Shown piece by piece: positions 46,984 to 64,000 of a DNA stretch of 64,000 bases. The position numbers and the translations under genes were made by a program. Location: contig SVDS01000002.1 of assembly GCA_015057715.1 (NCBI GenBank), forward strand, positions 1 through 64,000, read 5' to 3'. This DNA comes from Paenibacillaceae bacterium. GTDB taxonomy: Bacteria; Bacillota; Clostridia; Lachnospirales; Lachnospiraceae. The notes under the pieces are model-generated. The model saw only the letters and a list, made by a program, of their open reading frames with translations, did not search any database and was not told the origin of the DNA. Within the stretch, counting starts at the first letter, position 1. Every line of letters starts with the position of its first letter.

Positions 46984-48375
46984 TTAATTTTCATAAATCT
47001 CTTGTCCATGTAAAGTTACGTCATCCGGTGTTATCAGGATATCTGAACCACCGTCATTCTTAAGATTCACTTCTGTTTCAGAATTAACTTCAATCTCTGG
47101 AGCTTCGAATCGTATTTCGCTCCCTGCAGATAAAACAATCCCTTTTTTTGACTTGATTGTTGTAATCCCGTCTTTTCCCAGGCTTATATAACCTCCATGG
47201 GATCCAGTTTCAATCAGTATTCCATCTTTTTTGTATTTCACCTGACTTCCATAAGGACTGCGGATACTTCTGACATCAGGAGTTCCTTTACTTTCTCCTT
47301 TTATATTGGTAACACCGTACGCATCTGCTTCAACACAAGTCGGAAAATAAATCCGTATGCTCTCGCCTTTTTCTGGCATACAATACCATCCGCTTCCATC
47401 TGCTGAAGCTGCGACTGTAGAATAAGGAAACCAGTATTTGCTTTCCTTGCACTGCAGCCTGTCCTCTGCCAGTGTTACCTGAATTTTATCTCTGGAAACT
47501 GCATCAACTTTTCCATCTACGGAAATTCCTGCGATTCTCTCATTATATTTACGCATCATGGCGAGACCTTTTTTCTGTGTCAATTCATATCGGCTGACAA
47601 GAATCCCTCCTTCCAAAGTTCGTTCTAAATAACTGATGAACCAGGGGGCTGAGCCGTAAGTCACCTGGCTGCCAATCGGCAGAACATCATAACCGGTCAC
47701 CATATAACTGATAAAATCTGTCTGCAGCAGATCCTCTTTTCCATTTTTCATTAATAAACGGTATCTGTCTAAATTCATTTTCATCCGGAATGGATTATTA
47801 TCCCATTCTACGTCTTCTACCTGTAAGGAAAGCCCTGCCTTTATCTGTATCCCGTCTCCAATAGCACCTGGATATATGCTATCGGAATACTTTGATAGAA
47901 ATCTACATAAAAATTCCCAATCCGTCTCTTCATACTGATAAATAAGCTCTCCGATAGGTTCATTAGGTATATTTTTTAAACAATCCGGTGATGGGTATTC
48001 AGAAAGAATCTGATCAATGACCTGATGGGAAGTCATAGATAAATTCTGAAAACATCTTGTTTCCCTGGATATATCCATCCAATAGGTTGAATCCAGCATT
48101 TTCATTGTTAAAACCCGATGTTCCCCTTCTCTGTACAGAGTATGTGCTGTCAATGCACCTCTGAATAATATCTGTTCCCCCTCCTCAGCCAAATATTTTA
48201 GGGCAACGGTTTGAGGCATTTCATAAAACAGACTGTCTCCCATTTCTGCGTCCAGCAATACAGTAACCGAAAGCTCGGCATGCCGATTAGGGTAATGATT
48301 GATTTTTAAGTCGAGAATAGAAATTATCTCTCCAAAAGAAAAAAAAAGGTCTTTATATGTAATACCATTTTTCAT
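46984..48375 (-). CDS. VgrG-like spike protein 1, module B
   Basis: This 463-residue counterpart of 28663-30111 opens ITYKDLFFSFGEIISILDLK. It carries YEETDWEFLCRFLSKYSDSI (about 155-174) and the OB segment KYWFPYSTVAASADGSGWYC. The C-terminal needle includes IVLSAGSEIRFEAPEIEVNS. The ATG overlaps the adaptor stop by 4 nt, indicating translational coupling. With VgrG-like 2 and the Rhs fusion it gives three different hub-type proteins in the same transcript. Confidence 0.85.
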   Translation of the reverse strand: MKNGITYKDLFFSFGEIISILDLKINHYPNRHAELSVTVLLDAEMGDSLFYEMPQTVALKYLAEEGEQILFRGALTAHTLYREGEHRVLTMKMLDSTYWMDISRETRCFQNLSMTSHQVIDQILSEYPSPDCLKNIPNEPIGELIYQYEETDWEFLCRFLSKYSDSIYPGAIGDGIQIKAGLSLQVEDVEWDNNPFRMKMNLDRYRLLMKNGKEDLLQTDFISYMVTGYDVLPIGSQVTYGSAPWFISYLERTLEGGILVSRYELTQKKGLAMMRKYNERIAGISVDGKVDAVSRDKIQVTLAEDRLQCKESKYWFPYSTVAASADGSGWYCMPEKGESIRIYFPTCVEADAYGVTNIKGESKGTPDVRSIRSPYGSQVKYKKDGILIETGSHGGYISLGKDGITTIKSKKGIVLSAGSEIRFEAPEIEVNSETEVNLKNDGGSDILITPDDVTLHGQEIYEN

Positions 48376-48977
48376 ACTTTATCACTCCTTTGCAGCTGCT
48401 CATGGCTCTCCAGCAGCAGAGCCTCCAGTAAACGTCCAAATGTATTTTTATCCTTTAGCATGCAATTATAATTACCCATAACCCTGCGGTTATGTTTATG
48501 AATCCGATATACAAGGTTATACGTCCAAGTGTTTTTTTCACAAACCTCATAACATATATAATCCATATACGTTAATTTTCTAGTTAAGAAATTTCTGACT
48601 TGGTTTCCAGCTCTTTTCAAATCCCTTTCTATATTACTTCTCCATACCTCCAAAGGAATATCTTCCATATCCTTAGGCAAATGGATAATAAGCTGAACCG
48701 TTCCTGATTTTGGATTCATCCGTAAGAGTGCATCTTCATTTGTTTCACATGCTGCATCCGCATCTTCAATTTTTATTAACGGTATATTTTCTGCAAAGCA
48801 GAACACAGTTGAGAATTTCATTTCCTCTGAATCCGGCAGCTTTAATATACCCTTTTTGATTCCATCTCTAAGAGTTTCTAAATCCCAGCCTCTTTCCTCC
48901 CCGGTCTCTTCTTTTCTTTTTTCTTCAAGTTTCTTTTCCCGTTCCCATGCGGCAATCCGCTCATCCATCTGTTCCAT
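48372..48977 (-). CDS. Putative spike-loading adaptor (DcrB/EagR-like), module B
   Basis: This 201-residue paralogue of 30124-30744 has a charged N-terminal helix (MDERIAAWEREKKLEEKRKE). A compact alpha/beta domain follows, ending TYNLVYRIHKHNRRVMGNYN, and then a C-terminal helix. It shares the MDYICYEV/VDYICFDV strand and the GNYNC turn with the module A protein. The DcrB-type resemblance is based on strand order only. It connects the apparatus genes upstream to the module B spike genes without a visible terminator, so module B probably belongs to the apparatus transcript. Confidence 0.55.
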   Translation of the reverse strand: MEQMDERIAAWEREKKLEEKRKEETGEERGWDLETLRDGIKKGILKLPDSEEMKFSTVFCFAENIPLIKIEDADAACETNEDALLRMNPKSGTVQLIIHLPKDMEDIPLEVWRSNIERDLKRAGNQVRNFLTRKLTYMDYICYEVCEKNTWTYNLVYRIHKHNRRVMGNYNCMLKDKNTFGRLLEALLLESHEQLQRSDKV

Positions 48978-49067
48978 AAAGTCCTCCTTCTGAAATATTG
49001 TGTCTACAGATTCATAACGCTCCTTTTGTTCTAATTGCCGATTAAATCACAAAACTCATGTCATCGT

Positions 49068-49844
49068 TTAAATGAGCAGCATCCCCCTGTTACCATGGCT
49101 TCCTGTTCTTCTCTTAAATTCACCTTTTCCATTATCTTTCAATATTTCCAGGAGTCCCCTGTAGATAGCTCCATTTCCATTGCCGTTAAAATCCTCCCCA
49201 TGTCTGGCTGAAAGGTATTCTTCCATGCAGGAAACTGATACTACTCCATCATTTGATAAGGCCGCCATAGAAAAGCCGGCATCCAGTGGATCGGAGACTC
49301 CGCCTTTTATTAACTCTCTGGCAAACTGGCAGACGAGCCTGGGATTTAACGTGCTTCCTCCCGCTGCTGCATAGGGCTGGTAAATCAAGTTGATGGTATC
49401 GTATTCCGTGGAGTAATCGGAAAAACTCTCATAGGTACTACGGAGCCTGGCTCCGTTTTGCAGCCGGAACCTGCATAATTCCATTTCAGTCACACCATCT
49501 GCTTTTTTCTCTTCCAGTACAATCCTGGTGTTCCCGATAATTCTTCCCATTTCCATTGCTTCCGTAAGAAATTGCACTTTTAAATACCGCATTCTGTCTT
49601 CAGCTTTACAGTCCATAATAAAAGGCTCCGTCAACATATACAGTTTTTCACTGTGATAAATAATTCCTGGAGAAACGGTCAGCACACTATTATCCCAGTT
49701 GAAACTGCAGCCATTTACTATACCGTCGCCAAACCCCTGAAATGACAAATCAAATAAATTCTTCGGGTAATCCCTTAACTGATCCAGCATCTCTACCCTG
49801 AGAAGCCTCTTTTTCTCAAATTGAGGATAAACATATTGAAACAT
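49068..49844 (-). CDS. Candidate baseplate or fibre-attachment protein (258 residues)
   Basis: The start is set at 49844, behind AGGAGGCGGTGAG. I recognise no named family. The N-terminus (QYVYPQFEKKRLLRVEML, then FGDGIVNGCSFNWDNSVLTV and SPGIIYHSEKLYMLTEP) has the look of a beta-rich attachment domain. The pattern resembles the N-terminal shell of T6SS TssK and phage fibre adaptors. The C-terminal ~90 residues are helical and end in a Gly/Arg-rich tail. There is no signal peptide or membrane segment. Its position right before the spike module suggests a baseplate component. Alternative: a cytoplasmic assembly factor. Confidence 0.45.
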   Translation of the reverse strand: MFQYVYPQFEKKRLLRVEMLDQLRDYPKNLFDLSFQGFGDGIVNGCSFNWDNSVLTVSPGIIYHSEKLYMLTEPFIMDCKAEDRMRYLKVQFLTEAMEMGRIIGNTRIVLEEKKADGVTEMELCRFRLQNGARLRSTYESFSDYSTEYDTINLIYQPYAAAGGSTLNPRLVCQFARELIKGGVSDPLDAGFSMAALSNDGVVSVSCMEEYLSARHGEDFNGNGNGAIYRGLLEILKDNGKGEFKRRTGSHGNRGMLLI

Positions 49845-49858
49845 CTCACCGCCTCCTG

Positions 49859-50554
49859 TCAGCACATAATAATTTCATCTATTTCCATTGTTTCTTCAAT
49901 TCCCATAATTCCAAAGTGGTGTTCATAATAAATCTCCACATGATAAGGCAATTCAACAAACATCTTGACCAGAAACTTCATTTTTCCATCTAATGTCTTA
50001 TCCATCTTTCTGCCAATGAACACCAGTATTTCATAGGAATTCTGGTTGCTGTGATACACGATATTATCGGGAATCAATTCTTCCATCATATCCTTAAACA
50101 TATCCAGGGAGCTGCCGGTTTCATACTGCTTCAACATACCGCTTAAGATAAATTCCCGTTCATCCCGGGTAAACAGACCTATGGCATATCTGGATAATTC
50201 TCCAAATGCACATTCCTCCAAATCCCGGTACAGGAGCTTTTTATGATACTCCTCCTTTGTCATACCTGACAAAGCATCATTTTGAGCGAGAAGATGGAAG
50301 ATCAGGTGAAACAGATTATCACGTAGCATGGGATAATCTTTAAGATCCGGCTGATAGAAAATCTTGAAAATATTGTAGAAACGGTAATACGGATTAACTT
50401 CAATTACTTCCCCCTCTCTCATCTCTTCCTGATTTAAGCATGGAATGGACAATTCCATATAGGAGCTAAACCTGTGGGGCATTTTAAAACGCACTGTAGA
50501 TTCCGTCACGCCCTGCTTTCTCAGCTGAAGCATTGCTTCCCACAAATAATTCAT
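49859..50554 (-). CDS. Candidate baseplate protein (231 residues)
   Basis: The start is 50554, overlapping the previous stop as ATGA behind GGAGGAAAG; an ATG six codons upstream is rejected. The protein is soluble. The middle is helical (NLFHLIFHLLAQNDALSGMT, SRYAIGLFTRDEREFILSGM). The C-terminal strand pair, LVKMFVELPYHVEIYYEHHF, recalls the end of phage tail protein I/TssG-like wedge proteins. That resemblance is weak and unverified. Tight coupling to the 429-residue gene suggests the two products interact, as TssF and TssG do. Confidence 0.4.
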   Translation of the reverse strand: MNYLWEAMLQLRKQGVTESTVRFKMPHRFSSYMELSIPCLNQEEMREGEVIEVNPYYRFYNIFKIFYQPDLKDYPMLRDNLFHLIFHLLAQNDALSGMTKEEYHKKLLYRDLEECAFGELSRYAIGLFTRDEREFILSGMLKQYETGSSLDMFKDMMEELIPDNIVYHSNQNSYEILVFIGRKMDKTLDGKMKFLVKMFVELPYHVEIYYEHHFGIMGIEETMEIDEIIMC

Positions 50555-51840
50555 ATGAGCTTTCCTCCGCATTCATATTCCGGATACAATTCCTGAACCT
50601 CTGAGGTAATAAAGCTTGCTAAATCCCGCAAAAGCCACTTTTCTCTCCCTCTTGCTTTAAAGTAAATAACTAACCTCTTTTTCCCCGACCGGTCCCGGAT
50701 CTCATCCTCCATAAAAAAATTCATGGGATAGGTTTCCAAAGCCTCCTGGTTCTGTTCTAAAAGTGCACAGTCCTTATATTCGATAAACTCCTCCAGTCCA
50801 AATCCACGAATAAACCGCTCCAGTTCCCCTTTTGTCTTCACCATCTGTCTTGTTTTTTCCTGAAAACGTTCAGCAAACCCATCTTTTCTCAAATTTTCCA
50901 TAACAGGATAGGTGTAACGATCAATTTTCTGGTCGGCCCCACTCCTGATCATATACACATCCCATTTTTTCGCATTTGCAATCTTTCCTGTTACAAGAAG
51001 CTTTTCTCCGCTTTGTCTGACGCTTCGAATTCCTGCTTTTTCTTCCACCAGGTATGAGTGGTCTGTTCCAAAATCACGAATGGAAATCACGTGTTCATAG
51101 TTTTCATGATCACTGCAGGCCACTGGAAATCCAACACTTTCCAGCTTTAAATGCCTTACATTCCAAATTGGTATCATATCGTACTGAACAAATGGATTAT
51201 ATTCTCCAAAATCTGCTCCAAAGCTGGTAATAACCTCATCGTCACCAATCTCATCCGGGAGACTGGTAATACAGATATCCGCCATCTTAAACAGATAGGG
51301 GGCATTAATTGTTTTCCAGGGTATGCCATTTTTCATAAACAGGTGATAAAGATGCTCTAACTCCTGCCTGTATCGTTTGCTGGGCTCCAGTGAAATGGAA
51401 ACAGGATATTCCTCTCCTATCTTTAACCTACCGGTAAAGTTGTCCTGATTTTTTAAGACTTCCTCCACCTCCATGGCATCGCAACGGAGAAATACGGTAG
51501 TAAGACAGAAACGTCCTTCCTCCTCAAGTTTTTTTCTTACCTCAGAAATCTCAAAAACCTGAGTATCCAAATCCGATTCACAAATGGGAGTCATTAAATG
51601 ATGGGAATTGTCTAAATATCCACGTTCTATAATGCCTGTCCGAATCAGATAGCGGTTCACATCATACACCAGATCATTCATTACCCGCTCCTCTAACATG
51701 CGGTACATCTGGACATTTGTCTCATACAGTTCTAAAAAAACTCCCTCCATCAGATTTTTAAATACAATCCTCTCCTCCAAATTGGTGATTGACTGTATCT
51801 CTTCCCGGATCATTGCCTTCATCTCTTCTATCTGATCCAT
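50551..51840 (-). CDS. Candidate baseplate wedge protein (429 residues, TssF/gp6-like by position)
   Basis: No catalytic motif is visible. The N-terminal ~95 residues are helical (FKNLMEGVFLELYETNVQMY). The central part has repeated beta strands (FCLTTVFLRCDAMEVEEVLK, YPVSISLEPSKRYRQELEHL, NPFVQYDMIPIWNVRHLKLE). The C-terminal ~60 residues form a compact domain (KRLVIYFKARGREKWLLRDL). Size, lack of signal peptide and place in the contractile locus make a baseplate wedge role plausible, but I cannot show homology by eye. The stop overlaps the start of the next gene. Confidence 0.45.
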   Translation of the reverse strand: MDQIEEMKAMIREEIQSITNLEERIVFKNLMEGVFLELYETNVQMYRMLEERVMNDLVYDVNRYLIRTGIIERGYLDNSHHLMTPICESDLDTQVFEISEVRKKLEEEGRFCLTTVFLRCDAMEVEEVLKNQDNFTGRLKIGEEYPVSISLEPSKRYRQELEHLYHLFMKNGIPWKTINAPYLFKMADICITSLPDEIGDDEVITSFGADFGEYNPFVQYDMIPIWNVRHLKLESVGFPVACSDHENYEHVISIRDFGTDHSYLVEEKAGIRSVRQSGEKLLVTGKIANAKKWDVYMIRSGADQKIDRYTYPVMENLRKDGFAERFQEKTRQMVKTKGELERFIRGFGLEEFIEYKDCALLEQNQEALETYPMNFFMEDEIRDRSGKKRLVIYFKARGREKWLLRDLASFITSEVQELYPEYECGGKLI

Positions 51841-51898: not shown

Positions 51899-52747
51899 TT
51901 ATTTCTCAGTACTCATCCTTATATCAAATTTCTTTATTAATTCTATTGAACTCTTTGAATCATTTGAATTATTTTTCTTATTTTGTGAAATCATTAAATT
52001 CGATTTTTCTTCTTCTGCTACATTTATATTTTTAAAATCTTTTCCACTTTTAGATATATAATATGTAAATTGAATGTCACAATTATTTGACTCTTCTAGT
52101 AACTCATTTATTGTATTAATAATTATTTGCTCGTTACCTTTCATCTCATTATTATCAGGAGTAAACAAATTAATATTGATATCCAGTCTAGTAAAATCAC
52201 TTTTTAGAAAGTCTAGTAATTGCGATTTTGGCGTTATACTATTATTAAATGTTAAATCTGGATAGATACTAATTACTAACTTATATTCCTTTAAAATACC
52301 ATCTAATTCATTTTCAATACACGCTCTCAACTCATTCCGAAGAAATTTCCAACAATAATTATCTCGTATTTGCTCACTGTATTGATTATTATTTGTATCA
52401 ATATCAAAATAAACACGAAATACATAATTGGGATCCTCCAATGATGAGGCCTCATAACAAAGTTTATAATTATGTTCTACTTGTCCTGGTATAAAAGATT
52501 CAACATCATTAAAGCCATCAGGGTTAACCAAAAATTTTATTCCATATTTATTTTCAAGATAATTTTCTGCTCTCTCAACAATTTTTGCCTCCCGAATTTG
52601 CGTTTCTTGGTCCTCTATCTTTTGCTTTTCTTTCATTTTTATTAATAACATCACAAAAGCACCAAATATGATTCCAATTATTAATAATGCTGTAATCACT
52701 ACTGTAAATATGATTAGAATAATTTTTTTATTAGAACTGTCTTTCAT
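51899..52747 (-). CDS. Uncharacterised membrane-anchored protein (282 residues), AT-rich insertion in the operon
   Basis: A single N-terminal membrane segment (about 9-35, IIFTVVITALLIIGIIFGAF) is followed by a charged coil and an extracytoplasmic-looking alpha/beta domain. The C-terminus is Asn/Ser/Lys-rich. The gene is clearly more AT-rich than both neighbours and is set off by 58- and 91-nt gaps, while most genes around it overlap. That suggests a later insertion into the apparatus operon or a fast-evolving component. No family recognised. It could be an immunity-like or envelope-docking protein. Confidence 0.5.
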   Translation of the reverse strand: MKDSSNKKIILIIFTVVITALLIIGIIFGAFVMLLIKMKEKQKIEDQETQIREAKIVERAENYLENKYGIKFLVNPDGFNDVESFIPGQVEHNYKLCYEASSLEDPNYVFRVYFDIDTNNNQYSEQIRDNYCWKFLRNELRACIENELDGILKEYKLVISIYPDLTFNNSITPKSQLLDFLKSDFTRLDININLFTPDNNEMKGNEQIIINTINELLEESNNCDIQFTYYISKSGKDFKNINVAEEEKSNLMISQNKKNNSNDSKSSIELIKKFDIRMSTEK

Positions 52748-52838: not shown

Positions 52839-55310
52839 TTACTTCCTCCCATCAAAGAAGTTCTCTTCCCACGTATCATCCTCAAAATCGAAGAATGTCT
52901 CTTTTCCTTTATATAGCACCTCATTTTCCCTCAAAACCGGAAGCACAATAAAGCCCCATCTTTTTCTGGATACCCATACGAAAAATTTCATCTCACCTTC
53001 CAAAATGGTATCTGTCTCCTCCTGAATGACACTACCTGCATACTGAGTGTCGATCTCTTCCTGGGTTGTCTGGTCAAAAGAGGCTGTATCATACTGAAAA
53101 TAACAGGTTTTTAAATGTTTTCCCTTTTCATCATTTAAATAAAGGTCCAGCTGCTTTCCGACCATAAACCGGGAAATGCATCCGATATGTTCTTCCGGAT
53201 CCAGGCTTCGAATCAGTATCTTTTCCTGGTTTTCATGGGTATAAGCCATAATTTCATAAGGAAGTGTCCGAACCTGATAATTCTGATTTACCTTCATATA
53301 TCCTCTCTTACAATTCATGAAGTAGGAAAGTGCACCAGTTAGACAGCACATTTTCAGTTCAGTTTCATCTGCTTCTCTCTTTGTATTCTGAATCAGTTTT
53401 CCTGGGACATACTGCTTTAAAGCCTCCGTAAACAGACTTGATTTGCAGGATTGACCCGTAAGTTTTAGCATCTCATAGTCCTGAAGCTCCCCCTGCTCAA
53501 ATTTCTGATCCAGAAAGCGTTCCATAACATGGTAGATATCCGGTCTTAAAATTCTCTCAATTTCATTTAAGTATAGAGAAAATGTTATTTCCCGGTCAGC
53601 ATGAACCAGATGCCCATCCTCAAATACAGAAAGCTTCCATTTGTCCAGAAACATCTGATTCCTTTCCTCACTTCGCGTAGTACTGATTAAAAGCTCGTAT
53701 TGAAATTTTGCCTGGAAAAATGATTTTTTAACCTCTTCTGCAAGCTGAAATAAATAGTAATAATTGTTTTTTACACGGAAATACGATTCTCTGTCCCGTT
53801 CTTCATATTCCTTAAAACAGGTTGGGAGAAATTTCTCCGCTCTCTTATATTGATCCGTTAATTCCTGAATGTCGTCTCCTTCATTAGTAAATCCTGGTTC
53901 TTCTGCTTTTATATATCCCCATGCCTTTGCAATCCTGATCTTAAGCATTTGCAGAATACGATATGTCAGATTATTTCCGCCAAAATTCGTATCCCCGTTT
54001 TCATAGCTTGTCTCCAGATCAATGGTGTAGGAAACCCGGCTGTTATCAATTAAGAAGCGGCCCGAAGTCAGATCTGTAGTACCGCCTCCACAGTCAATGA
54101 TCAGCGCATGATATTTTCGTCCCCTCTCATAGAGATTCTGACTAATCATTCCATATATGCTGTGAAAGAGAACTGCCATCCCCTCATCAAGTTCACAGCT
54201 CACGGAATAATCCGGTAAAAGCTCCTTAAACAATTCCTGGAACTTTTCTTTCTGGCGGATTGGAGCAAGAAACTGTATATTTTGGAAGCTGCATTTAAAC
54301 TGCTGCTTGGCAAGATCAATTAAATACTCCAAAAATGCCTTCAGCATATCCCGGCGTGGAATTAAATATTTATAACCGCTTTTTAAAATCACGCCTTCCG
54401 GACGGTTAGGATCGCTGATCCACCGTTTCATATCGTAAAAAACAGGGATATCCTCATCCTGATAATTCTGGCTAGCCAGCGTCAGAGCATCAAAACCAAA
54501 TACAAACTCTGGTTTTCCTTCGCTTTCCCTGACACCGATTACACTGGGTATAATGTTTCCGCCCCCCGCCTTCGCAATTTTAACAGACCCGTCATTTAAG
54601 CAGATTCCCATGGCAGTGTTGGAGCTTCCAAAGTCAATTACAAGAGGAAGATCTGTTTTTGCCACCTCTTTTATTTCAATGTCTAAAAGCGGGATCCGGA
54701 TTCCTTCCATATGTCCGGGTATTACAGAATGATTTCCCTGGTAACAGTCATAAAGGAATTCTGAATCCCGCTCATTTGGGAAATACAGAATAAAATACTG
54801 ATGCTTTTCCAGAGGAAGAATTTCCATGTCCTTTCCCTGGAACAAATAATAAGTATCTTTTATTTTTTTTATGTAAAAACAGGTATAAATACTGAAGTTT
54901 TCATCTACAAGAAGTAAATTTCCCTCATAGAGCAAAACATCAGATTCAACCGTATATCCGTCGAGTTCATTTAAGCCGGTTCCCTGGTGGATTGCAATTG
55001 TACCAGGTATTCTCACATTCTGACTGGAAGTAATATGTACTAAATTCCGGTCAAAAAACTCCTGAAGACGGGACAGTCCTCCATTGCAGGATGAGGTAAT
55101 ATGCCGATATTCCTTCTGCCCCCGAAAGCGCATAATCAACCTTAACAGTCCCTCCCGGTCCATAGAATTCCCAGACGGTATTACTAACTTTTCCCTGCGG
55201 CATATTTCTCTCAGCTGAAATGTAGTCATACTTTCCAGCCCGCTTTTTTTATAGGTATTTCTATCCGGTTCCTTTTTCCCCGGGTGTAAGGTATAGGTGT
55301 ATCGGCTCAT
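52839..55310 (-). CDS. Hsp70/actin-fold ATPase with N-terminal SAP-like segment
   Basis: This 823-residue protein carries an Hsp70-like nucleotide-binding domain from about residue 212. Phosphate 1 is LVIDFGSSNTAMGICLNDG, phosphate 2 is ALIIDCGGGTTDLTSGRF (about 400-417), and the adenosine region lies near MLKLTGQSCKSSLFTEAL. The first ~210 residues are extra; MTTFQLREICRREKLVIPSG resembles a SAP-type helix-loop-helix. No ordinary substrate-binding domain follows. The C-terminal ~150 residues form beta-rich sequence. With the J-domain protein at 59040-59471 it may form a dedicated chaperone pair for the giant Rhs effectors or for apparatus assembly. Confidence 0.8.
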   Translation of the reverse strand: MSRYTYTLHPGKKEPDRNTYKKSGLESMTTFQLREICRREKLVIPSGNSMDREGLLRLIMRFRGQKEYRHITSSCNGGLSRLQEFFDRNLVHITSSQNVRIPGTIAIHQGTGLNELDGYTVESDVLLYEGNLLLVDENFSIYTCFYIKKIKDTYYLFQGKDMEILPLEKHQYFILYFPNERDSEFLYDCYQGNHSVIPGHMEGIRIPLLDIEIKEVAKTDLPLVIDFGSSNTAMGICLNDGSVKIAKAGGGNIIPSVIGVRESEGKPEFVFGFDALTLASQNYQDEDIPVFYDMKRWISDPNRPEGVILKSGYKYLIPRRDMLKAFLEYLIDLAKQQFKCSFQNIQFLAPIRQKEKFQELFKELLPDYSVSCELDEGMAVLFHSIYGMISQNLYERGRKYHALIIDCGGGTTDLTSGRFLIDNSRVSYTIDLETSYENGDTNFGGNNLTYRILQMLKIRIAKAWGYIKAEEPGFTNEGDDIQELTDQYKRAEKFLPTCFKEYEERDRESYFRVKNNYYYLFQLAEEVKKSFFQAKFQYELLISTTRSEERNQMFLDKWKLSVFEDGHLVHADREITFSLYLNEIERILRPDIYHVMERFLDQKFEQGELQDYEMLKLTGQSCKSSLFTEALKQYVPGKLIQNTKREADETELKMCCLTGALSYFMNCKRGYMKVNQNYQVRTLPYEIMAYTHENQEKILIRSLDPEEHIGCISRFMVGKQLDLYLNDEKGKHLKTCYFQYDTASFDQTTQEEIDTQYAGSVIQEETDTILEGEMKFFVWVSRKRWGFIVLPVLRENEVLYKGKETFFDFEDDTWEENFFDGRK

Positions 55311-55325
55311 GTATATTTCCTCACT

Positions 55326-57101
55326 TTACTTTTTATCTGTTTTTTTACTGTCAACTCCAGGACCATATTCTCCTGATGTTTCTTTGTCTGATTCGGAATC
55401 GTTTTCTAAACTGGCTTTTTTCTCTTCTCTTGCCTTGATTCCTGCTTTGGCTGCAGCAATCTTTTGGTTCAGCCCGTCTGCAACATCGGAAAGTTCCAGG
55501 CGCACATAGATTGCCTGGGCAGTCTGATAATAAGTGATTGCACTTTCATACTTTTCGTCGGTCAAAAGCTCATTTCCTTTATTTTCCAGATCTATGGCAT
55601 TCTTTTGATCATTTAACTTCTGCTGATTTTCCAGCTCCCGCTGTTCATCCTCTTCCTTTTTTGCCTTTTCCTCGTCAGCTTTCACAGACTCATCTTCTGC
55701 TTCTTTTGCAGCTTTGCTCTCTTCTTTCGCAGCAGCCTGGGCAGATGCTGTTTTCTGACTGTCCTTATCCATCTTTTCTTCTAATGCCGCCAGCTTTGCC
55801 GTCGCCTCTTCTTTTCCAGCTGCAAAATAAAGGGAAGCTGCCTTGTCTCTGGCCTCACGGTAGGCCTTTAATGCGCCTTCCAATTCACCATACCCCTCTT
55901 TTTGCTGTCCCGACTCGATTAAATCAAATACACTGATATAATCTCTGGTACGCTTTAACTGGCTCTCTATGTATTGTTTCCCCACGTTTCCCGATTCCAC
56001 GGATAAATCCTTAGCTTTCAGATAAAGATCCTGGGCTTTCTGATACGCTTCCCCTTTCATCGCATCATCAGCCAGAAGAATCTGATCTGCCAGCCTCTTA
56101 TATAAATCTGCTTCTTTGGATTCTTTTTTCTTCTTTAAGCCGTCAGCAAGCTTCTTTGCCTCTTTGTAATCCTCAGATGCTTTCAAATAGTTGTCATAAC
56201 GTAAATACTCCTCGCCACTTTCCATATGGATTTTAAGACTCTCTTCTTTACGCTCTATACTTCTGTGACGAAGGAAAAGTCCAAGGCTGATTCCTCCTGC
56301 TGCCAGCAGAATAGGCAGTGCAATAAGTAAAACTTTCTTTACCGTAATCTTCTTGGCAGGAGGCTGGTAGACCTTGTCCACAAAAGTCACAGCAAGGCTG
56401 TAATTATCCACCTCATCCGTTTCCTGTTTTCCCAGGATGGAATCTTCCGCTTTATCAAGTATTTCTCCTGGCTCAGTCGCCTCCTTAACTGCTTCTAAGA
56501 ATTCATCCTCACCATAATTTTCCCATGCACCTCTGGTAAAAAGAGCAAAACTATCACCATCCTCAAGGCGGATTTTCTTTGAGCCCGAAATCTCCGGCTG
56601 TCCCCGCTCTCCAAGATAGGAATACAGATTATTCCGTGCTTCGTGAGCGGCCGCCTGATCCAGCGTAATCCGCTCCTCACGAAGCAGATTTTCAGTAAGG
56701 GACTGATCTGTTGTCTTTACTAAGATACGGGCATTTCTCACCAGATAAAACCGGCTGTTTCCTGCATAGAAAAAGCGAATGTTCCTGTAGTCTGACACAA
56801 CCAGAACAACGGAAGCCTTCAGATGCATTCCTCCCCGCTGCTTAAGAAGCTCCTTGTGGGCAAGATTTATGTAGTGCTTTAACTTCCCTTTTTTCATGGA
56901 AGGTCCTTCTACAAAGCTGCGAATCACACTTTCCACCACCAGCTTGGCACTGTTGATTTCCAGTTCACCGTCAAGACTGTCTGCAAGCACGTAGCAGGCA
57001 AAGTCATCCATTTCCACATAACCAAAGTAATCTCTGTTTGTCAGCTTATGACCTTCCTCCGAGATATACCTTGTCCGGAATTCAGAGTTAATTCTTCTCA
57101 T
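55326..57101 (-). CDS. PP2C-like (degenerate) protein with membrane anchor and long coiled/TPR-like region
   Basis: Of 591 residues, the first ~245 are PP2C-like: NRDYFGYVEMDDFACYVLAD, then SVVLVVSDYRNIRFFYAGNS and DGDSFALFTRGAWENYGEDE. A membrane segment (about 258-282, VLLIALPILLAAGGISLGLF) follows. The remaining ~300 residues are Lys/Glu/Ala-rich helices with TPR-like spacing. Several usual metal ligands look replaced: AGNSR instead of AGDSR, and TRG instead of SDG. It may be a pseudophosphatase scaffold. It overlaps the preceding PP2C gene by 14 nt. The membrane anchor suggests docking of the apparatus at the inner face of the membrane. Confidence 0.78.
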   Translation of the reverse strand: MRRINSEFRTRYISEEGHKLTNRDYFGYVEMDDFACYVLADSLDGELEINSAKLVVESVIRSFVEGPSMKKGKLKHYINLAHKELLKQRGGMHLKASVVLVVSDYRNIRFFYAGNSRFYLVRNARILVKTTDQSLTENLLREERITLDQAAAHEARNNLYSYLGERGQPEISGSKKIRLEDGDSFALFTRGAWENYGEDEFLEAVKEATEPGEILDKAEDSILGKQETDEVDNYSLAVTFVDKVYQPPAKKITVKKVLLIALPILLAAGGISLGLFLRHRSIERKEESLKIHMESGEEYLRYDNYLKASEDYKEAKKLADGLKKKKESKEADLYKRLADQILLADDAMKGEAYQKAQDLYLKAKDLSVESGNVGKQYIESQLKRTRDYISVFDLIESGQQKEGYGELEGALKAYREARDKAASLYFAAGKEEATAKLAALEEKMDKDSQKTASAQAAAKEESKAAKEAEDESVKADEEKAKKEEDEQRELENQQKLNDQKNAIDLENKGNELLTDEKYESAITYYQTAQAIYVRLELSDVADGLNQKIAAAKAGIKAREEKKASLENDSESDKETSGEYGPGVDSKKTDKK

Positions 57102-57948
57102 CAGACACCTCCGCTTTTATTAGCACTACACTTCCGTTTTCTTTGTCCATACCTTTTTTCTGTTCTGCTTCCATAATCAGACTGTCTGACTTTTCCTTTA
57201 ATGTGTAGTCTCTCAGCAAAATGTCTTCCATTTCTGCCCATGAGAGAACATCAAAAATCCCCTTGGTCATCATCATAATGATGTCTCCCTGCCTCAGACG
57301 TATGGGTTTGTCACATACTTCAATATCCCGAAATCCATCAATTCCAAGATAATTCCATATCCGGTCCTCTTCCATCGTCCAAATGGTTTCCTGTCTGGAT
57401 AAGACGCCTTCCTGATATGCATTTAATGCCAGTACATTCAGAGTCTGTCCCTTGCTTATGGGGATCAGCTCCTGATTTCGAAACAGGGCAATTCTTATAT
57501 CACCTGCCAGACCATAATGAAACGTAAATCCGTTTATGAAAGCTGCAGCAAGACACGTTCCGCCTCTTCGTTCCCCCAGTGTCTTCTGCACTCTTTGATT
57601 GGCTTCATAAAACGATGTTTTAAAGAAATATTCAGGGTTATGTAAAACCTGATAGGGCTGAAAAGCGTCAAGAACAGTATCCATGGCTGTCTGAGCGCAT
57701 ACTTTTCCTGTATTGGCTTTTCCAATGCCATCGGAAAGAACAGCCATCACCCCTGCGCTACTGGATTCAAATCCTGCCATATCTGACTGTATTTCCTTAT
57801 CTCCTATTGTATGGCTGATTACGCACCGCCCAAAAGAGCCGCTCTTATTTTCCTCGTTTCTGTTCATTTCCTCTCCAGGCAAAAGAAGTCTGCCTGCGAC
57901 GGAAACAAGTAAAGCTGCTCCAATACCAATCATTATTGTCAGCATCAT
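57088..57948 (-). CDS. PP2C-type protein with N-terminal membrane segment
   Basis: This 286-residue protein has an N-terminal hydrophobic anchor (about 3-22). The PP2C domain has VMAVLSDGIGKANTGK (metal Asp retained), GGTCLAAAFINGFTFHYGLA followed by GDIR, and GDIIMMMTKGIFDVLS, where the usual SDG is TKG. Canonical PP2C enzymes remove phosphate from Ser/Thr, and in T6SS such a protein (PppA) counteracts the kinase PpkA that acts on FHA proteins. Two FHA proteins are encoded just upstream. Loss of the third Asp could reduce or abolish activity. The start overlaps the zinc ribbon-FHA gene by 4 nt. Confidence 0.82.
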   Translation of the reverse strand: MMLTIMIGIGAALLVSVAGRLLLPGEEMNRNEENKSGSFGRCVISHTIGDKEIQSDMAGFESSSAGVMAVLSDGIGKANTGKVCAQTAMDTVLDAFQPYQVLHNPEYFFKTSFYEANQRVQKTLGERRGGTCLAAAFINGFTFHYGLAGDIRIALFRNQELIPISKGQTLNVLALNAYQEGVLSRQETIWTMEEDRIWNYLGIDGFRDIEVCDKPIRLRQGDIIMMMTKGIFDVLSWAEMEDILLRDYTLKEKSDSLIMEAEQKKGMDKENGSVVLIKAEVSDEKN

Positions 57949-58442
57949 TTTTGATCATCCCATTCAAAGTTTTCTCCGCACAAAGGTACAAATAAGAAAC
58001 GACTTTTCCCCAGTTCTATTACATCATATGGTTTTAATTCTGTTGGAATATAAACCGCTTCCTCATTCAGATAGGCTAGTCCAGCTGCATCGCCAGGCAG
58101 AATCACCGTATTCCTCTTTTTCTGATCGTAAACAATTATGGTGTGATTCTTCCGGTTGATCTCATTGTCTCCCAGGATCTGTATATCCATGTCATCTCCT
58201 CTGCCAACGAAATTTTTGCCGCCATGAATCTTATAATCCATTCCAATTCTGGCTCCAGCTATGCACACCAGCCATCCGCATACCGGACTGACCTCTTCCT
58301 GAAGCAGTTCAACAGCCGGCTCAAAACCAAGGGGTTTGGTATCATCCTTTTCATCCTTTAATTTCATCTGACAGTATGGACAGGTATTTCCATAACGTCT
58401 TGCATTAAATACATGTCCGTTTGGGCATCTTACTAAGCTCAT
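57945..58442 (-). CDS. Zinc ribbon plus FHA domain protein
   Basis: This 165-residue protein begins MSLVRCPNGHVFNARRYGNT and then CPYCQMKL, giving a three-Cys-plus-His zinc ribbon (C6, H10, C21, C24). The FHA domain (about 65-160) has FVGRGDDMDIQILGDNEINR followed by KNHTIIVYD and a closing strand pair. FHA domains bind phosphothreonine. In contractile systems they recruit regulators to the baseplate. It is cytoplasmic, with no membrane segment. Short gaps or overlaps join it to the FHA-membrane protein and the PP2C gene, forming a phospho-signalling block. Confidence 0.85.
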   Translation of the reverse strand: MSLVRCPNGHVFNARRYGNTCPYCQMKLKDEKDDTKPLGFEPAVELLQEEVSPVCGWLVCIAGARIGMDYKIHGGKNFVGRGDDMDIQILGDNEINRKNHTIIVYDQKKRNTVILPGDAAGLAYLNEEAVYIPTELKPYDVIELGKSRFLFVPLCGENFEWDDQK

Positions 58443-58465: not shown

Positions 58466-59020
58466 TTATGTCAATAAGAGACGGGTATTTGCTATGTAAA
58501 TAATATCTCCCGCCGATAATCTGCAAGGCCGGTTTGTTACCTGGTAACAGCCGCCGTCTTCCACCTTTTTGATTTTTACACCATTTTGAGAACCCAAATC
58601 CTCCAGATACCAGGAATCCAGGCAAAAATTTAATACTGCATGCTGAGAGTCAATAAATGTGCTGTATTCACAATCTTCTAAATCAACATCGACCTCTTCT
58701 TCGTCATTCTTCTTTCCTATAATCAAAGCCGTTTTTCCAGCCAGATCCCAGGATTTTAATGGTCTTTCCTTTTCATCCAGAAGTACCAGCTGACAGACTC
58801 CTGACATTATTTTATAATCTGCCGCGTTTTGCCTTTTTTTTGTATCATGTGAGGTCAATAAAACAAGAATATCCGCCAGAGCCAGAACCGAAACTACTCC
58901 GATTGGAATCTGTATCCACATGCCTTTGCGGTTTAAATAAAAGAAACACAGGTTAAATAATACCGAGCAGATCAACACTGCCATATCAAGTACAATTTTC
59001 TTTTTTTTGATGGATTTCAT
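58466..59020 (-). CDS. Membrane-anchored FHA domain protein
   Basis: In this 184-residue protein two hydrophobic segments (about 10-30 and 35-58) form an N-terminal hairpin. A cytoplasmic FHA domain follows (about 95-184) with KTALIIGKKNDEEEVDVDLE, STFIDSQHAVLNFCLDSWYL and EDLGSQNGVKI. The SxxH and SQNG core residues of FHA phosphopeptide binding are present (S..DSQH; GSQNG). It would place a phosphothreonine reader at the membrane, next to the PP2C-like proteins. It may take over part of the membrane-docking job done by other proteins in classical T6SS. Confidence 0.85.
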   Translation of the reverse strand: MKSIKKKKIVLDMAVLICSVLFNLCFFYLNRKGMWIQIPIGVVSVLALADILVLLTSHDTKKRQNAADYKIMSGVCQLVLLDEKERPLKSWDLAGKTALIIGKKNDEEEVDVDLEDCEYSTFIDSQHAVLNFCLDSWYLEDLGSQNGVKIKKVEDGGCYQVTNRPCRLSAGDIIYIANTRLLLT

Positions 59021-59039: not shown

Positions 59040-59471
59040 TCATTTTTTTACGCCAAAAAAAGAAGAAAACAAATCATCCGGATTTACCGGTCCAGTGGAT
59101 TTTTTAGAGTTATTAGTCTCTTTGTAGGTTTCCATTCCCTTTCCAGGCTGAAAACCAAAAAAACGTTCAAACTGGCTTAAATCAGGAGCTGGTCTTTCCG
59201 TCTCATTATTTGAATAGCCACGGCCGTTTTTCCCCTGCTCTTGCCTTGTGCTCTCCCTATTTTCACTATAGCCAAGATCGTACCGTTTCCGCTTTTCTTC
59301 ATCTCCAAGAACCTCATAAGCTTCCTGGATCTCATACATCTTTTTATTTCCCTCCGGATCATCCTTTATTACATCCGGATGGTACTTCTTTGCCAGCTTT
59401 CTATACGCCGCCTTAATCTCTTTCTCTGTTGCCTGTGAGGATACCCCCAGAATCTTATAGTAGTTGAGCAT
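59040..59471 (-). CDS. J-domain (DnaJ/Hsp40-type) co-chaperone
   Basis: The start chosen is the ATG at 59471, where [20 protein letters not shown] begins the J domain; an upstream in-frame codon would add ten non-family residues. The J domain (1-~65) has the HPD triad in [11 protein letters not shown], followed by [20 protein letters not shown]. The C-terminal ~70 residues are polar and end SSFFGVKK, with no zinc finger or substrate domain. It is a specialised J protein, likely to stimulate a particular Hsp70; the Hsp70-like product of 52839-55310 is the obvious partner. It sits directly after the tube genes. Confidence 0.88.
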
Positions 59472-59519
59472 AATATTTTCCTTAGCGAAAAGGGCTGCCA
59501 AACGGCAGCCCCCACATGT

Positions 59520-59945
59520 TTACACGCTGTATCCGCCTTCCACAGCGATTTGCGCCATCTTGTCTTTTTTCTGCTTCACAATTAGCTTAAATGTACCAAC
59601 ACCCTCGGTATCGCCGTAATCTTCTTTATAGTCAACTACGAATGCATTGGGGTATGTAAATTTACGAATTACCTGGGAAGCTGCAATTACTTCAATGGTT
59701 ACTTTCCGATAACAGTCAGATTTCTCTGCAGGTACTAAGGACCAGAGTCCCAGCTGTCTTGTTGCATCAAATGGATCTCCGTCAACTGCTGTTAAAATCT
59801 TTCCTGAAATTTCTACAGTGCTTCCCATATCAGTGGAACGGGCATTGGAGTCATGGGGAATATCGGTTCTGAATTTCACTCCTGTAATGCTGATTGTTCC
59901 TAAATCAATGGTAGATGGTCCTTCTACTTTTAATGTAAATCCCAT
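59520..59945 (-). CDS. Hcp-like tube protein 2
   Basis: This 141-residue beta-rich protein reads LKVEGPSTIDLGTISITGVK, FRTDIPHDSNARSTDMGSTV and EISGKILTAVDGD. It ends with NAFVVDYKEDYGDTEGVGTF and LIVKQKKDKM. Length and strand pattern fit the Hcp/tail-tube fold, a hexameric ring stacked into the inner tube. Homologues in clostridia are often labelled with an uninformative name ('membrane-associated protease 1'), as far as I recall. No protease motif is visible. It is paralogous to 59979-60407 with about half the residues shared. It lies next to the sheath gene, as tube genes usually do. Confidence 0.65.
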   Translation of the reverse strand: MGFTLKVEGPSTIDLGTISITGVKFRTDIPHDSNARSTDMGSTVEISGKILTAVDGDPFDATRQLGLWSLVPAEKSDCYRKVTIEVIAASQVIRKFTYPNAFVVDYKEDYGDTEGVGTFKLIVKQKKDKMAQIAVEGGYSV

Positions 59946-59978: not shown

Positions 59979-60407
59979 TTATTCTCCGCTGAATCCGCCT
60001 TCAAATTTCAGGTTTACCATCTTATCTTTTTTCTGCTTGATAAGAAGTTTGAAAATACCGGTACCGGTTTCATCTGTAAAATCCTCTGAGTAGTCCACAA
60101 CGAAAGCGTTGGGTACTGTAATTTGTCTTACCACCTGAGATGCATTAACTACATCAATCTGAACATTACGGTAGCAATCGGAATTCTCTGCCGGAACAAG
60201 AGACCATCTGGCCAGCTTACTGGTATCGTCTGCGGCTTCCCCGCCTACTGCTGCCAGTATTTTTCCTTCAATCAGTACCGTTGAGCCAAGATCTGTTGAT
60301 CTTGCGTTGGAATCGTGGGGAATATCTGCTCCAAACACCACGTTTGTGATGCTTGTCTCACGCAGTTCCACAGATTCGCTGCCTGTGATTTTCATTCTAA
60401 GTCCCAT
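59979..60407 (-). CDS. Hcp-like tube protein 1
   Basis: This 142-residue paralogue starts behind GGAGGAAAATTT. It shows the same blocks as tube protein 2 (VVFGADIPHDSNARSTDLGS, ARWSLVPAENSDCYRNVQID, NAFVVDYSEDFTDETGTGIF). The all-beta pattern with one central helix fits the tail-tube superfamily. Two tube-type proteins in tandem may be major and minor subunits, alternate in the stack, or serve the two spike modules separately. Assignment is by size, pattern and position beside the sheath gene; there is no direct proof. Confidence 0.65.
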   Translation of the reverse strand: MGLRMKITGSESVELRETSITNVVFGADIPHDSNARSTDLGSTVLIEGKILAAVGGEAADDTSKLARWSLVPAENSDCYRNVQIDVVNASQVVRQITVPNAFVVDYSEDFTDETGTGIFKLLIKQKKDKMVNLKFEGGFSGE

Positions 60408-60488
60408 AAATTTTCCTCCATTCTCTTTTATCTATTTTTTTGTAAACTATAAGCCCTGTAAATTCGGCTTTCAGTTACCGATAGGAAT

Positions 60489-60514
60489 GATCTTTTCTAA
60501 CTTCTGAAAAGATC
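60489..60514 (-). other. Perfect hairpin between sheath/microprotein and tube genes
   Basis: GATCTTTTC (60489-60497) pairs perfectly with GAAAAGATC (60506-60514) around an 8-nt loop. No T-tract follows on the minus strand. It may be an mRNA processing or stabiliser site that raises tube-protein output relative to sheath. Confidence 0.45.
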
Positions 60515-60536
60515 TGATTGTACGCAGAAACTATAA

Positions 60537-60629: not shown

Positions 60630-60643
60630 AATCAATTACTTCC

Positions 60644-62845
60644 TTATGCGGACTGTCCTTTTCTGGTCAATTCAACTTTTAAGTTTCTGGTTGTATTGCT
60701 GAACGTCAGCTGAACATTGCAGATACCATTTTTTTCATCTATATTGAAATCCAGTTCATCTCCATCCTGAAGTAAGGAGTTAACGTACTGGCGGTTTGCA
60801 TCCCATTTACTCTTCTGGCTGCTTGGATTATTGCTGAAAAACTTAAGGATCTTGTCCTGCTTGAAATCACCGCTGTAAAAACGCAGCATTCTTTCTATGT
60901 AGGTAACCACAAGAGTCTTGTAAATGGGTTCGAATTCTGTTCCGTTGCTTAGTAAATTTCTTGCTTTGTAAACCATAATATTTCTGATATCCCTGCCCTT
61001 ATGCTGAGCATTATCGGAAGTAAACACAAAGCCAAAGCCGGTATTGTTAATGGAATTTTTAATTGCATTGGTAAATCCTGAAATTTCCTTTGTCATGCTG
61101 GTAGTTACAAGCAGGGCATTATCATCTGCTTCAATATCGTAACGCACACCCGGATATTCCATGGACGTATTGGGGAATCTCTGTTTTAAATATTCCGGAC
61201 ACTGCCAGGAAGCTGCAATACCTGCTGCGCCATAAGCGGCTCCTATGTAAACACCCTCGATCCACATTTTCATAATGTCTTCTTTTTCCTTAGAAAGAGC
61301 AACATTTCCTTCCTCATCAATCACCATACGGTTATCGAGAATCAGTCCTGATTTATCCTTTGGTATAATGGTTACGTTAGGAATACAGGGAACTACAAAT
61401 TCGCTGTACTCTTTTTTCATTAAAGGTGTACATTTATCTTTAAAGATACCAATACCCTCTGTTGCCACATAGCTGAAGGTGCTTTCTTCACCAGTGGAAA
61501 AGCTGAAGAATGTAGTAATCTTATAAGGTGTAATGGCATTCATCAGGGTAGCAAGACTTTCCATGGAATTGGTTCCAGGTTTCTTTACTTTCTGATTACC
61601 CGCAAACCGCATTCTCTGAAGCTTACCGCCACCGGACTGATTGAGTTCCACATCAGGTACAATTCCAAACCACAGAGTATTTTCAAACTCATTTTTATCA
61701 TTTGTGGTATTTAAGTAGGTTAAAAGTCTTGGAAGATTGCTTGATTTTACTAACATTTCCAAAGGAATATTTGTAATAAGTAGCTTTGGCTGCATTCCTT
61801 TTTCCTTTACCTGATACTGATCAAAAAATGCCTTAACGCCAAGAATCTTTTCAATCAGAGGTTTTACAGCCTTTACAAAATCGTCCTTGCTCTTTTTGTA
61901 GAATTCCAGGTATGTATTGTAATTGCGGACTTCTAATTCACGGTCTACGCTGCTTTCCACGGTTGAGGTAAGCGGACAGAAGGTTCTAACTACCAGTTCC
62001 CTTACATAATCGGAAGGAGTATCATTTAAAGCATCGTAGTCATCTCTAAATGTCTGCACCAGGCTGGAATTAACATGATCATCTACAACTGCCAGCTGGG
62101 TTCCCTCCTCCTGTTTCATCTCCAGAATCTTTAATTCTCCGTCGTCTCCCATGCTTAACAGTCCGGCCTTAAATTCCTGTCCGCCCTGTGCCGATTCTCC
62201 GCTTCCAAGAAGGAGACGGGTTTTAATATCTTCAATTGCAAGAGGAAGCATGGCTAAAACATTATTGTAGTTATGGCTCGCCTGTTCAAACTGAAAGTTT
62301 AACTGGTCTCCCATATCCAGGCGTTTGGGATCCTCATCATCAAGCTCCATATACTTGCCGTATGTATACTGAATCTCTTTTCTCACCTGGCGGATATCTT
62401 CCATAATTTTTTTCGGTGAAATCATATCAAGAACATTGCTGAACTTAAAATCCACATTTGCCACTCCCATAGCCCCTTTTGCGCCCTGAAGAGTAATCAG
62501 CATATTTAATAGGTCGTTCATTTCATTTAGCGGAATTTCCGTAATGCAATTGTCTGGGATATTCTCTGGTTTCACCAGACTGTACTGGATACTTCCTGTT
62601 TTGGCATCGCACCAGGAGTAAACAACTGGCGCAAATTTCTCCAGAAATTCTGCGAAACTTTCTACCAGAAGCATTTCATTGATTTCCTTGATCTTGTCAT
62701 CATCAAGGCTTGTCTTTCCTCTGACATCTCCGATCAGGGTGAGTAAATTCAGCTTTTCCGGATTGATTTCTGAGAATAATATTGTCCGGTTTGTTTGTGT
62801 AATTGTTTCCATAAGCTTCTCTCTCTCTTTCTTACTTTTATTCAT
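60644..62845 (-). CDS. Sheath-like protein of the contractile apparatus (TssB/TssC-like, 733 residues)
   Basis: This 733-residue soluble protein lies directly upstream of the tube genes. The N-terminal ~160 residues contain INEMLLVESFAEFLEKFAPV and VDFKFSNVLDMISPKKIMED, which resembles the small sheath component. The large middle has WFGIVPDVELNQSGGGKLQR, VPCIPNVTIIPKDKSGLILD and GVYIGAAYGAAGIAASWQCP. The C-terminus has YIERMLRFYSGDFKQDKILK and a final beta strand. The overall plan fits a fused TssB-TssC or phage-like sheath. It was recognised by plan and context, not by a signature motif. Start may instead be the ATG 11 codons later (METITQTN). No ClpV-type ATPase is nearby. Confidence 0.55.
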   Translation of the reverse strand: MNKSKKEREKLMETITQTNRTILFSEINPEKLNLLTLIGDVRGKTSLDDDKIKEINEMLLVESFAEFLEKFAPVVYSWCDAKTGSIQYSLVKPENIPDNCITEIPLNEMNDLLNMLITLQGAKGAMGVANVDFKFSNVLDMISPKKIMEDIRQVRKEIQYTYGKYMELDDEDPKRLDMGDQLNFQFEQASHNYNNVLAMLPLAIEDIKTRLLLGSGESAQGGQEFKAGLLSMGDDGELKILEMKQEEGTQLAVVDDHVNSSLVQTFRDDYDALNDTPSDYVRELVVRTFCPLTSTVESSVDRELEVRNYNTYLEFYKKSKDDFVKAVKPLIEKILGVKAFFDQYQVKEKGMQPKLLITNIPLEMLVKSSNLPRLLTYLNTTNDKNEFENTLWFGIVPDVELNQSGGGKLQRMRFAGNQKVKKPGTNSMESLATLMNAITPYKITTFFSFSTGEESTFSYVATEGIGIFKDKCTPLMKKEYSEFVVPCIPNVTIIPKDKSGLILDNRMVIDEEGNVALSKEKEDIMKMWIEGVYIGAAYGAAGIAASWQCPEYLKQRFPNTSMEYPGVRYDIEADDNALLVTTSMTKEISGFTNAIKNSINNTGFGFVFTSDNAQHKGRDIRNIMVYKARNLLSNGTEFEPIYKTLVVTYIERMLRFYSGDFKQDKILKFFSNNPSSQKSKWDANRQYVNSLLQDGDELDFNIDEKNGICNVQLTFSNTTRNLKVELTRKGQSA

Positions 62846-62909
62846 CCGCTCTCATCCTGAAAAAGGAATGGCAAGCGTAAACAACTATGTTGGTATCGAT
62901 TTAAAACTG

Positions 62910-64000
62910 TTACTGAATCATTGATATATAATGAATCTCCAGATCATAGATTCTATCCGGTGCGGTTATGGATATAATGTCACCAAAGCTGACACTGTAC
63001 TGGATCTTCTTACAGACAATAGAGCTGCCAATCATAATAGAGGAATTAGATGAATGATACAAAATCATGCGCCGATCCTCATCTGCTATCAGAAATATAT
63101 TATCCAGTCCTAAGTTGGCAGAAGCTTCCGGGTATTCTTTCATCAGATCCCCAAGACTGACTCTGTTGTCTTTAATCTTATACATAGGGAAGGTAAGAGG
63201 CGGGATTTCTTCATCTCCCTCAGGCTGCCCAATAAAGTAAGCATCCATTTTTCCCTGAAAACGGTTCTGCGCTTTCTTCTCGGTTATAACTTCAAGCTCA
63301 GGCTTGGGTTTATGGAATATTCTCCATATAATCCCACCAAGTATCAGGACCGCGATTAAAATCGCCCACCAATATGCCTGCCATACAGGCATAACTGCAA
63401 TCAGGTACGTATAGGATATGGCTGTCTCTCCATCAGATATTTTAAAAATAACATTCTGGAGACCGGATTTAACGGGTTTAACATGTAGAACCCCTTCTTC
63501 TATGGATACCTTGGCAGCACTGTCTGAATTTTGTTCCAGTGTATAGGCAAGGGCATCTCCATCCGAATCTGTAAAATAATCATTGAGTACAAATTTTTTT
63601 TCACCACTTAGCGGATTATATTTAATTTGATCCGGAAGAGCGCCTGCCGGTGGTGTATTCATTACTAAAACCCTGACGGTGTCAAATATGCAGGATTCCA
63701 TAGCATCGTCTAAACGGCTTTCTATGTAATAAGTTCCTGATTTTGTAAGCGTTACTTCCCCTGTAATCACTCCATCTTTCACAGTTGTACTAAGGCTGCT
63801 TCGTCCGCCTTCCGATTGTCCATCTGCATAAAATTCAATTTTAGGTGTAAACCCCTTGTAAAAATTCTCATCTGAGATCACAGTCCCGGCTTCATCTTTA
63901 AAATAAATCTTAAACGGCAGCGGCTTGTTCCTGCCTGTGGACGTATCTAATTCCAAAGTTGGAATTAGATCTCTGTAACTGATCAGGTAAATCTTTAATC
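62910..64000 (-). CDS. Membrane-anchored beta-sandwich protein of the apparatus locus (partial, N-terminus off the right edge)
   Basis: The frame is open to the window edge (… LKIYLISYRDLIPT upstream of the first possible TTG start at 63956), so the N-terminus is missing. Visible parts are two extracytoplasmic Ig/cadherin-like beta domains (VKDGVITGEVTLTKSGTYYI; VLNDYFTDSDGDALAYTLEQ), one membrane segment (AYWWAILIAVLILGGIIWRI), and a ~130-residue cytoplasmic domain with FHA-like spacing (SSNSSIMIGSSIVCKKIQYS, VSFGDIISITAP). It could anchor the apparatus in the single membrane of a Gram-positive cell, replacing TssJLM. A VWA domain upstream is possible but not visible. Confidence 0.6.
   Translation of the reverse strand, partial: LKIYLISYRDLIPTLELDTSTGRNKPLPFKIYFKDEAGTVISDENFYKGFTPKIEFYADGQSEGGRSSLSTTVKDGVITGEVTLTKSGTYYIESRLDDAMESCIFDTVRVLVMNTPPAGALPDQIKYNPLSGEKKFVLNDYFTDSDGDALAYTLEQNSDSAAKVSIEEGVLHVKPVKSGLQNVIFKISDGETAISYTYLIAVMPVWQAYWWAILIAVLILGGIIWRIFHKPKPELEVITEKKAQNRFQGKMDAYFIGQPEGDEEIPPLTFPMYKIKDNRVSLGDLMKEYPEASANLGLDNIFLIADEDRRMILYHSSNSSIMIGSSIVCKKIQYSVSFGDIISITAPDRIYDLEIHYISMIQ

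Follow-up and report, generated by a model that had tools for sequence, protein, structure and literature searches.

A conserved Bacillota operon combining a predicted contractile sheath with Hcp-like tube proteins and VgrG/DUF4280 tips, probably a contractile injection system of a separate lineage

The window, bases 1-64000 of a 101,409-bp contig, contains a long series of minus-strand genes that a sequence-only reading had taken for a contractile apparatus. The open reading frames named in that reading were all found where it had placed them, and all lie on the minus strand. They are given below in operon order, from the vWA gene to f265, followed by the tip module that begins with f201. TM segments were called by a plain hydropathy scan; the assignments as Imm11-like, TPR and zinc-ribbon are weak or were made by eye.

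62910..64000, minus, cut by the window edge: vWA/Ig-like protein, N-terminus signal-like, single TM-like segment (residues 514-536)
60644..62845, minus: contractile sheath protein, single chain of 733 aa, predicted from an AF2 model compared with the PDB; no sequence family
59979..60407, minus: Hcp-like tube protein A, 142 aa, by weak profile matches
59520..59945, minus: Hcp-like tube protein B, 141 aa, a 60% identical paralogue of A, by weak profile matches
59040..59501, minus: J-domain (DnaJ) protein
58466..59020, minus: FHA protein with two N-terminal TM-like segments
57945..58442, minus: soluble FHA-like protein with an N-terminal Cys-rich stretch (zinc-ribbon-like, by eye)
57088..57948, minus: PP2C-like phosphatase with an N-terminal TM-like segment
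55326..57101, minus: 591-aa TM protein, PP2C-like in part (matched by the PP2C family profile), TM-like stretch at 251-278, weak C-terminal TPR matches
52839..55310, minus: Hsp70/actin-like ATPase, 823 aa, by weak DnaK matches and motifs
51899..52747, minus: single-TM protein in AT-rich DNA, between the Hsp70-like gene and f429
50551..51840, minus: f429, a core protein and baseplate candidate that the most divergent relatives retain
49859..50572, minus: core protein f237, baseplate candidate, gene overlapping f429
49068..49865, minus: core protein f265, baseplate/adaptor candidate
48372..48977, minus: f201, possible adaptor
46984..48375, minus: VgrG-like spike 1 (PF05954, E 5.8e-8)
45566..46966, minus: VgrG-like spike 2 (PF05954, E 2.3e-10; PF04717, E 2.9e-5)
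44603..45556, minus: pentapeptide-repeat protein
44067..44630, minus: Imm11-like protein (PF07791, E 0.0017, below its cut-off)
43578..44066, minus: DUF4280 (PAAR-like) tip (E 1.5e-22)
36261..43547, minus: VgrG-Rhs effector, 2428 aa, TNT domain at its end
17935..30762, minus: second tip module of f201, two VgrG, pentapeptide, Imm11-like, DUF4280 and VgrG-Rhs (2407 aa) genes

The identity of the 60644-62845 product as a contractile sheath, which the sequence-only reading had proposed, can be taken as settled as far as the predicted fold goes. In one structural comparison of the model with the PDB (VIA; a family absent from its match list may still be similar), phage, tailocin and eCIS sheaths, the last-named ranking among the best matches, aligned between about residues 1-19 and 716-728, whereas T6SS sheath chains aligned only from about 299-328. 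No convincing match came from searching the sequence against Pfam, NCBIfam, PHROGs and PDB sequences, and seven families that each matched one of 18 sheath members (best E 0.0033) were taken as chance matches.

Sheath relatives were found in 13 of the 250 genomes of a family sample and 6 of the 299 genomes of a phylum sample, the window's own genome being included in both counts. Of the 544 candidate stretches in genome_contigs, 413 proved to encode a relative, under titles such as Lacrimispora, Enterocloster, Clostridium, Anaerovirgula, Paenibacillus, Aneurinibacillus, Pelosinus and Propionispira. Two records titled Lacrimispora encode proteins 98% and 99% identical to the sheath and a third one 90% identical, and that of the MAG titled Paenibacillaceae bacterium SIG288 is 100% identical. 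Judging by what genes the near relatives carry, the host is likely one of the Lachnospiraceae. The best 80 of the 413 loci were read, each with at most 10 kb of flank such that many stop before the downstream genes. Matches were found to the sheath and tube in 80 of these, both FHA and both PP2C proteins in 79, the Hsp70-like protein in 77, the J-protein in 76, f429 in 71, f237 in 66, vWA in 62, f265 in 20 and VgrG and DUF4280 in 5 each. In 18 genome loci lying on longer stretches the counts were 18 for the sheath, 18 for the tube (two detected only by tblastn), 17 for the Hsp70-like protein, 16 each for f429 and f237, 15 for f265 and 12 for VgrG; the absences of the Hsp70-like protein, f429, f237 and f265 are confined to G020, G084 and G162, whose contigs end there. 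The gene set is real and widely inherited, and none of the family databases tried recognizes it. A 505-aa protein with an N-terminal lipoprotein-like hydrophobic stretch is encoded upstream of the vWA gene (contig 65097-66614; L002:5097-6614), with a match in 3 of the 80 loci.

The tube proteins are likely Hcp-like, as judged from weak but repeated profile matches. Pfam TssD matched 15 of 25 members of the tube family at E <= 0.1 (best 0.0011), the window's own protein giving E 0.022, below the curated cut-off, and the sole PDB sequence match of the family profile was 6bdc 'Hcp1' (E 0.0041). The two earlier tube calls hold to this extent, on profiles (TssD, 6bdc) and not on a fold. Sheath and tube genes were adjacent in 80 of the 80 loci read (the best 80 of 413), indicating a pairing beyond chance. 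Two tube copies were present in 70 of these loci and one in the other ten, which all belong to Paenibacillus or Aneurinibacillus.

The proteins encoded at 49068-51840 had been proposed as baseplate components. They proved to be part of the conserved core, with the genes of f429 and f237 overlapping in 63 of 66 pairs, but f429, f237 and f265 matched no known family. A gp25-type match was likewise absent among the operon proteins scanned by profile. An f237 row in the PDB search (E 2.3e-6, with no stretch passing alone) and ion-channel rows at E 0.023 and above were taken as chance, and the f265-family PDB rows at E 0.33 and 1.3, the second a virion structural protein, were too weak to use. The neighboring 51899-52747 protein was matched in just 2 of the 80 loci and is therefore a local passenger.

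The VgrG-like spikes and DUF4280 tips seen in the letters were confirmed by the profile matches listed above, and VgrG supplies the spike/hub of contractile injection systems. A Phage_GPD stretch that falls below the curated cut-off (E 3.3e-5 and 5e-6) opens each of the two Rhs proteins, and one of them ends with the TNT domain (E 3.7e-29). Downstream of the TNT-ended Rhs gene lies that of a NADAR-domain protein (34222-34782, E 2.2e-53), which is possibly linked to NAD toxicity or protection. An IS110-type transposase and a Mutator-type transposase fragment (31952-33265 and 16184-16759) lie between and beside the tip modules and may be relevant to the duplication of the module. The sheath locus does not always have tip genes linked to it: no VgrG was found in the 40 kb read for G054, whose VgrG module is on another contig (L145).

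Sheath and DUF4280 tended to occur together, although the p values come from related genomes, which are non-independent draws, and the tables assume from shared handles and counts that the same genomes were searched for both: in the family sample 12 genomes had both, 1 the sheath only, 19 DUF4280 only and 218 neither (p 1.8e-11), and in the phylum sample the numbers were 6, 0, 2 and 291 (p 3e-11). G084, whose sheath locus lies close to the end of a contig, has no DUF4280 match. DUF4280 without a sheath match was seen in 19 genomes of the family sample and 2 of the phylum sample, which makes 20 distinct genomes (G180 is in both). Six DUF4280 neighborhoods from such genomes were read, of which five (L138-L142) are eCIS-like and share a Pvc16-type gene; L143 showed nothing similar. 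Matches of ten proteins from four of these neighborhoods included Baseplate_J, Pvc16, CIS_tube and Phage_base_V. DUF4280 was therefore rejected as an exclusive marker, and judging from these neighborhoods it seems to serve two machines in this bacterial family. The L138 cluster also holds HAMP and MORN proteins.

The membrane-anchored beta-sandwich protein of the sequence-only reading is the vWA protein, whose full reading frame encodes 677 aa (contig 62910-64943), and its FHA and PP2C-like calls were upheld by profiles (FHA, E 9.2e-9 and, for the second protein, 9.8e-4, just under the cut-off; PP2C, E 1.6e-4). ORFs with kinase-like motifs were found in 11 of the best 80 of 413 genome_contigs loci and in 4 of the 18 genome loci, directly upstream of the sheath in G054, G354 and G465; none was found in the 80-kb stretch of the window itself. 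In the Paenibacillus and Aneurinibacillus loci L122, L125-L133 and L121 such ORFs lie upstream of the sheath, with two in L121. The two relatives most divergent by sequence identity, G068 and G495 (sheath 26-27% identical), share a DUF4280 fusion, a small partner protein, sheath, tube, VgrG, f429, f237, the Hsp70-like protein and f265, and their loci gave no match to vWA, FHA, PP2C or the J-protein. This gene content argues that the vWA/FHA/PP2C membrane set is accessory. Pelosinus and Propionispira have two membranes. Since records with these titles carry the system, monoderms are not its only hosts. Neither observation supports the single-membrane docking that was first envisaged.

The 52839-55310 protein matched a DnaK model (E 0.0044) and DnaK 5obx (E 0.075), both weakly. 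DFGxxNT and DCGGG were each found in 76 of 77 homologues and HPD in 76 of 76 J-protein homologues, motifs that we take to be Hsp70-like and J-protein signatures. The DnaK matches support assignment to the Hsp70 class, the match outside the motifs being weak.

Comparison with T6SS gave a mixed result. The likenesses are the Hcp-like tube, VgrG with a PAAR-type tip (here the PAAR-like DUF4280), Rhs effectors, FHA and PP2C proteins and the sheath fold. The FHA and PP2C proteins, together with the kinase-like proteins of some loci, are reminiscent of PpkA-Fha-PppA, the threonine-phosphorylation pathway of T6SS. Unlike T6SS, the system has one 733-aa sheath chain rather than the two-protein TssB/TssC sheath, an Hsp70-like ATPase in the operon and candidate baseplate proteins without a known family. 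Genome-wide profile searches of the assembly (99.15% complete) gave no match to VipB/TssC (PF05943), IcmF/TssM (PF06761) or TssK (PF05936), the E. coli control matching each time. Of the canonical T6SS genes reported as not visible, TssM gave no match genome-wide, and TssJ, TssL and ClpV gave none among the operon proteins scanned. A single-chain sheath is shared with the extracellular systems (Afp/PVC, Streptomyces and Anabaena CIS), from which the present system differs in its Hcp/VgrG-like parts and phospho-regulatory set.

We read the operon as encoding a chromosomal contractile injection system that forms a Bacillota lineage of its own, with a probability of roughly 0.85. Of the apparatus first proposed, the sheath (by predicted fold), the Hcp-like tube (by weak profiles), VgrG, DUF4280, FHA and PP2C stand, and Rhs domains and conservation of the operon come in addition; its single-membrane docking is not supported. 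We infer a mechanism, including contraction, baseplate roles, docking site, target cells, kinase relay and Hsp70 role, as follows. The two Hcp-like paralogues would form a tube, and the single-chain sheath would assemble around it on a baseplate whose probable components are f429, f237 and f265 and which VgrG, DUF4280 and VgrG-Rhs toxins would close. Sheath contraction would drive the tipped tube out of the cell and so deliver the Rhs toxin. In most members a membrane-bound relay of FHA and PP2C proteins, sometimes with a linked Ser/Thr kinase, and the vWA protein may sense and gate firing, and the Hsp70-like ATPase with the J-protein may assemble or recycle the sheath in place of ClpV. The most far-reaching form of the proposal is tentative, and we rate it slightly below an even chance: a third cell-based contractile injection lineage, in Bacillota with one or two membranes, that joins a phage/eCIS-like sheath to a T6SS-like tube and tips, an unrelated baseplate, an Hsp70/J motor replacing ClpV and a kinase-FHA-phosphatase firing relay, and sends VgrG-Rhs toxins across the thick cell wall.

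The single-chain sheath, aligning over nearly its full length with those of phage, tailocins and eCIS and only in part with those of T6SS, could also belong to a remnant or domesticated prophage or tailocin tail that is released by lysis and is no cell-based secretion device. The same genome encodes two phage-type sheaths elsewhere. One belongs to a prophage that also has portal and major head proteins; the other sits in a phage-tail cluster close to an endolysin-like gene (L149, contig C172). A sheath/tube set elsewhere had been named as grounds against the original call and literally exists, but these two sheaths probably do not replace that of the system. Profile comparison linked the system's sheath to neither of the two, a point against our main reading. 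The L149 cluster, a tailocin or prophage, holds a sheath, a tube, the endolysin-like gene and two large ORFs without a PHROG match. Sheath homologues were absent from 50,697 phage records, 72,556 plasmid records and viral contigs, and a prophage, plasmid or viral origin was accordingly rejected. No head, tape-measure or lysis family was found among the core proteins scanned, in agreement with the earlier lack of visible phage morphogenesis genes. The Hcp-like tube, the VgrG-Rhs and DUF4280 tips and the FHA and PP2C matches in 79 of the best 80 of 413 loci also speak against a lysis-released tail, which we consider very unlikely. A diverged extracellular CIS of the Afp/PVC type, to which the single-chain sheath and the DUF4280 genes of the family's eCIS-like clusters would point, is if anything more improbable. 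Baseplate_J, Pvc16 and CIS_tube recognize those clusters and none matched among the operon proteins scanned, and when the profiles of the sheath, f429 and f237 were set against local eCIS/prophage proteins in 80 clusters, no probability exceeded 3.2%, a weak test given the small reference alignments.

A further possibility, compatible with an injection system of this kind, concerns only the Hsp70-like/J pair, which might instead serve as a chaperone in loading or folding the very large Rhs effectors, or as a switch bound to the baseplate. The Hsp70-like gene is mostly beside f429/f237 and not beside the sheath, and G068 and G495 keep it without a J-protein. Its retention in the smallest gene sets is what one would expect of a machine part and speaks against this alternative, but those sets also carry DUF4280-fusion cargo, so that the point is not decisive. 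We rate this alternative as a serious one, somewhat below an even chance.

DUF4280 in Gram-positives had pointed to an unknown phage-like translocation system (PMC5349215), as suggested also by PAAR_H2/Phage_GPD neighbors (PMC8651086). In the passages of these papers considered here, DUF4280 and Phage_GPD proteins occur in Firmicutes without nearby T6SS/eCIS genes, much as here, and sheath, tube, baseplate and ATPase, proposed here, go unnamed. Haloarchaeal Cis11 is stated in PMC11566945 to have its closest relatives in Bacillota; we take these to be a different, eCIS-type lineage. No published description of the system was recognized among the matches listed, in a search covering neither preprints nor most subscription journals. 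The present machine may explain the orphan DUF4280 spike-tip proteins of Gram-positives known since 2016, as the locus provides the DUF4280-linked injection machine suspected since then with a predicted sheath and a likely tube, together with an ATPase and candidates for the baseplate. Lacrimispora, Enterocloster and Paenibacillus are among the carriers in which this can be put to a direct test. One carrier, G172 (L023, L024, L028, L029 and L144), has two loci for the sheath and as many as 12 matches to DUF4280, in an assembly of 2.2 Mb. Should the machine fire, delivery of toxins on contact could be common in Bacillota, and an Hsp70-type rather than an AAA+ ATPase could drive the recycling of the sheath.
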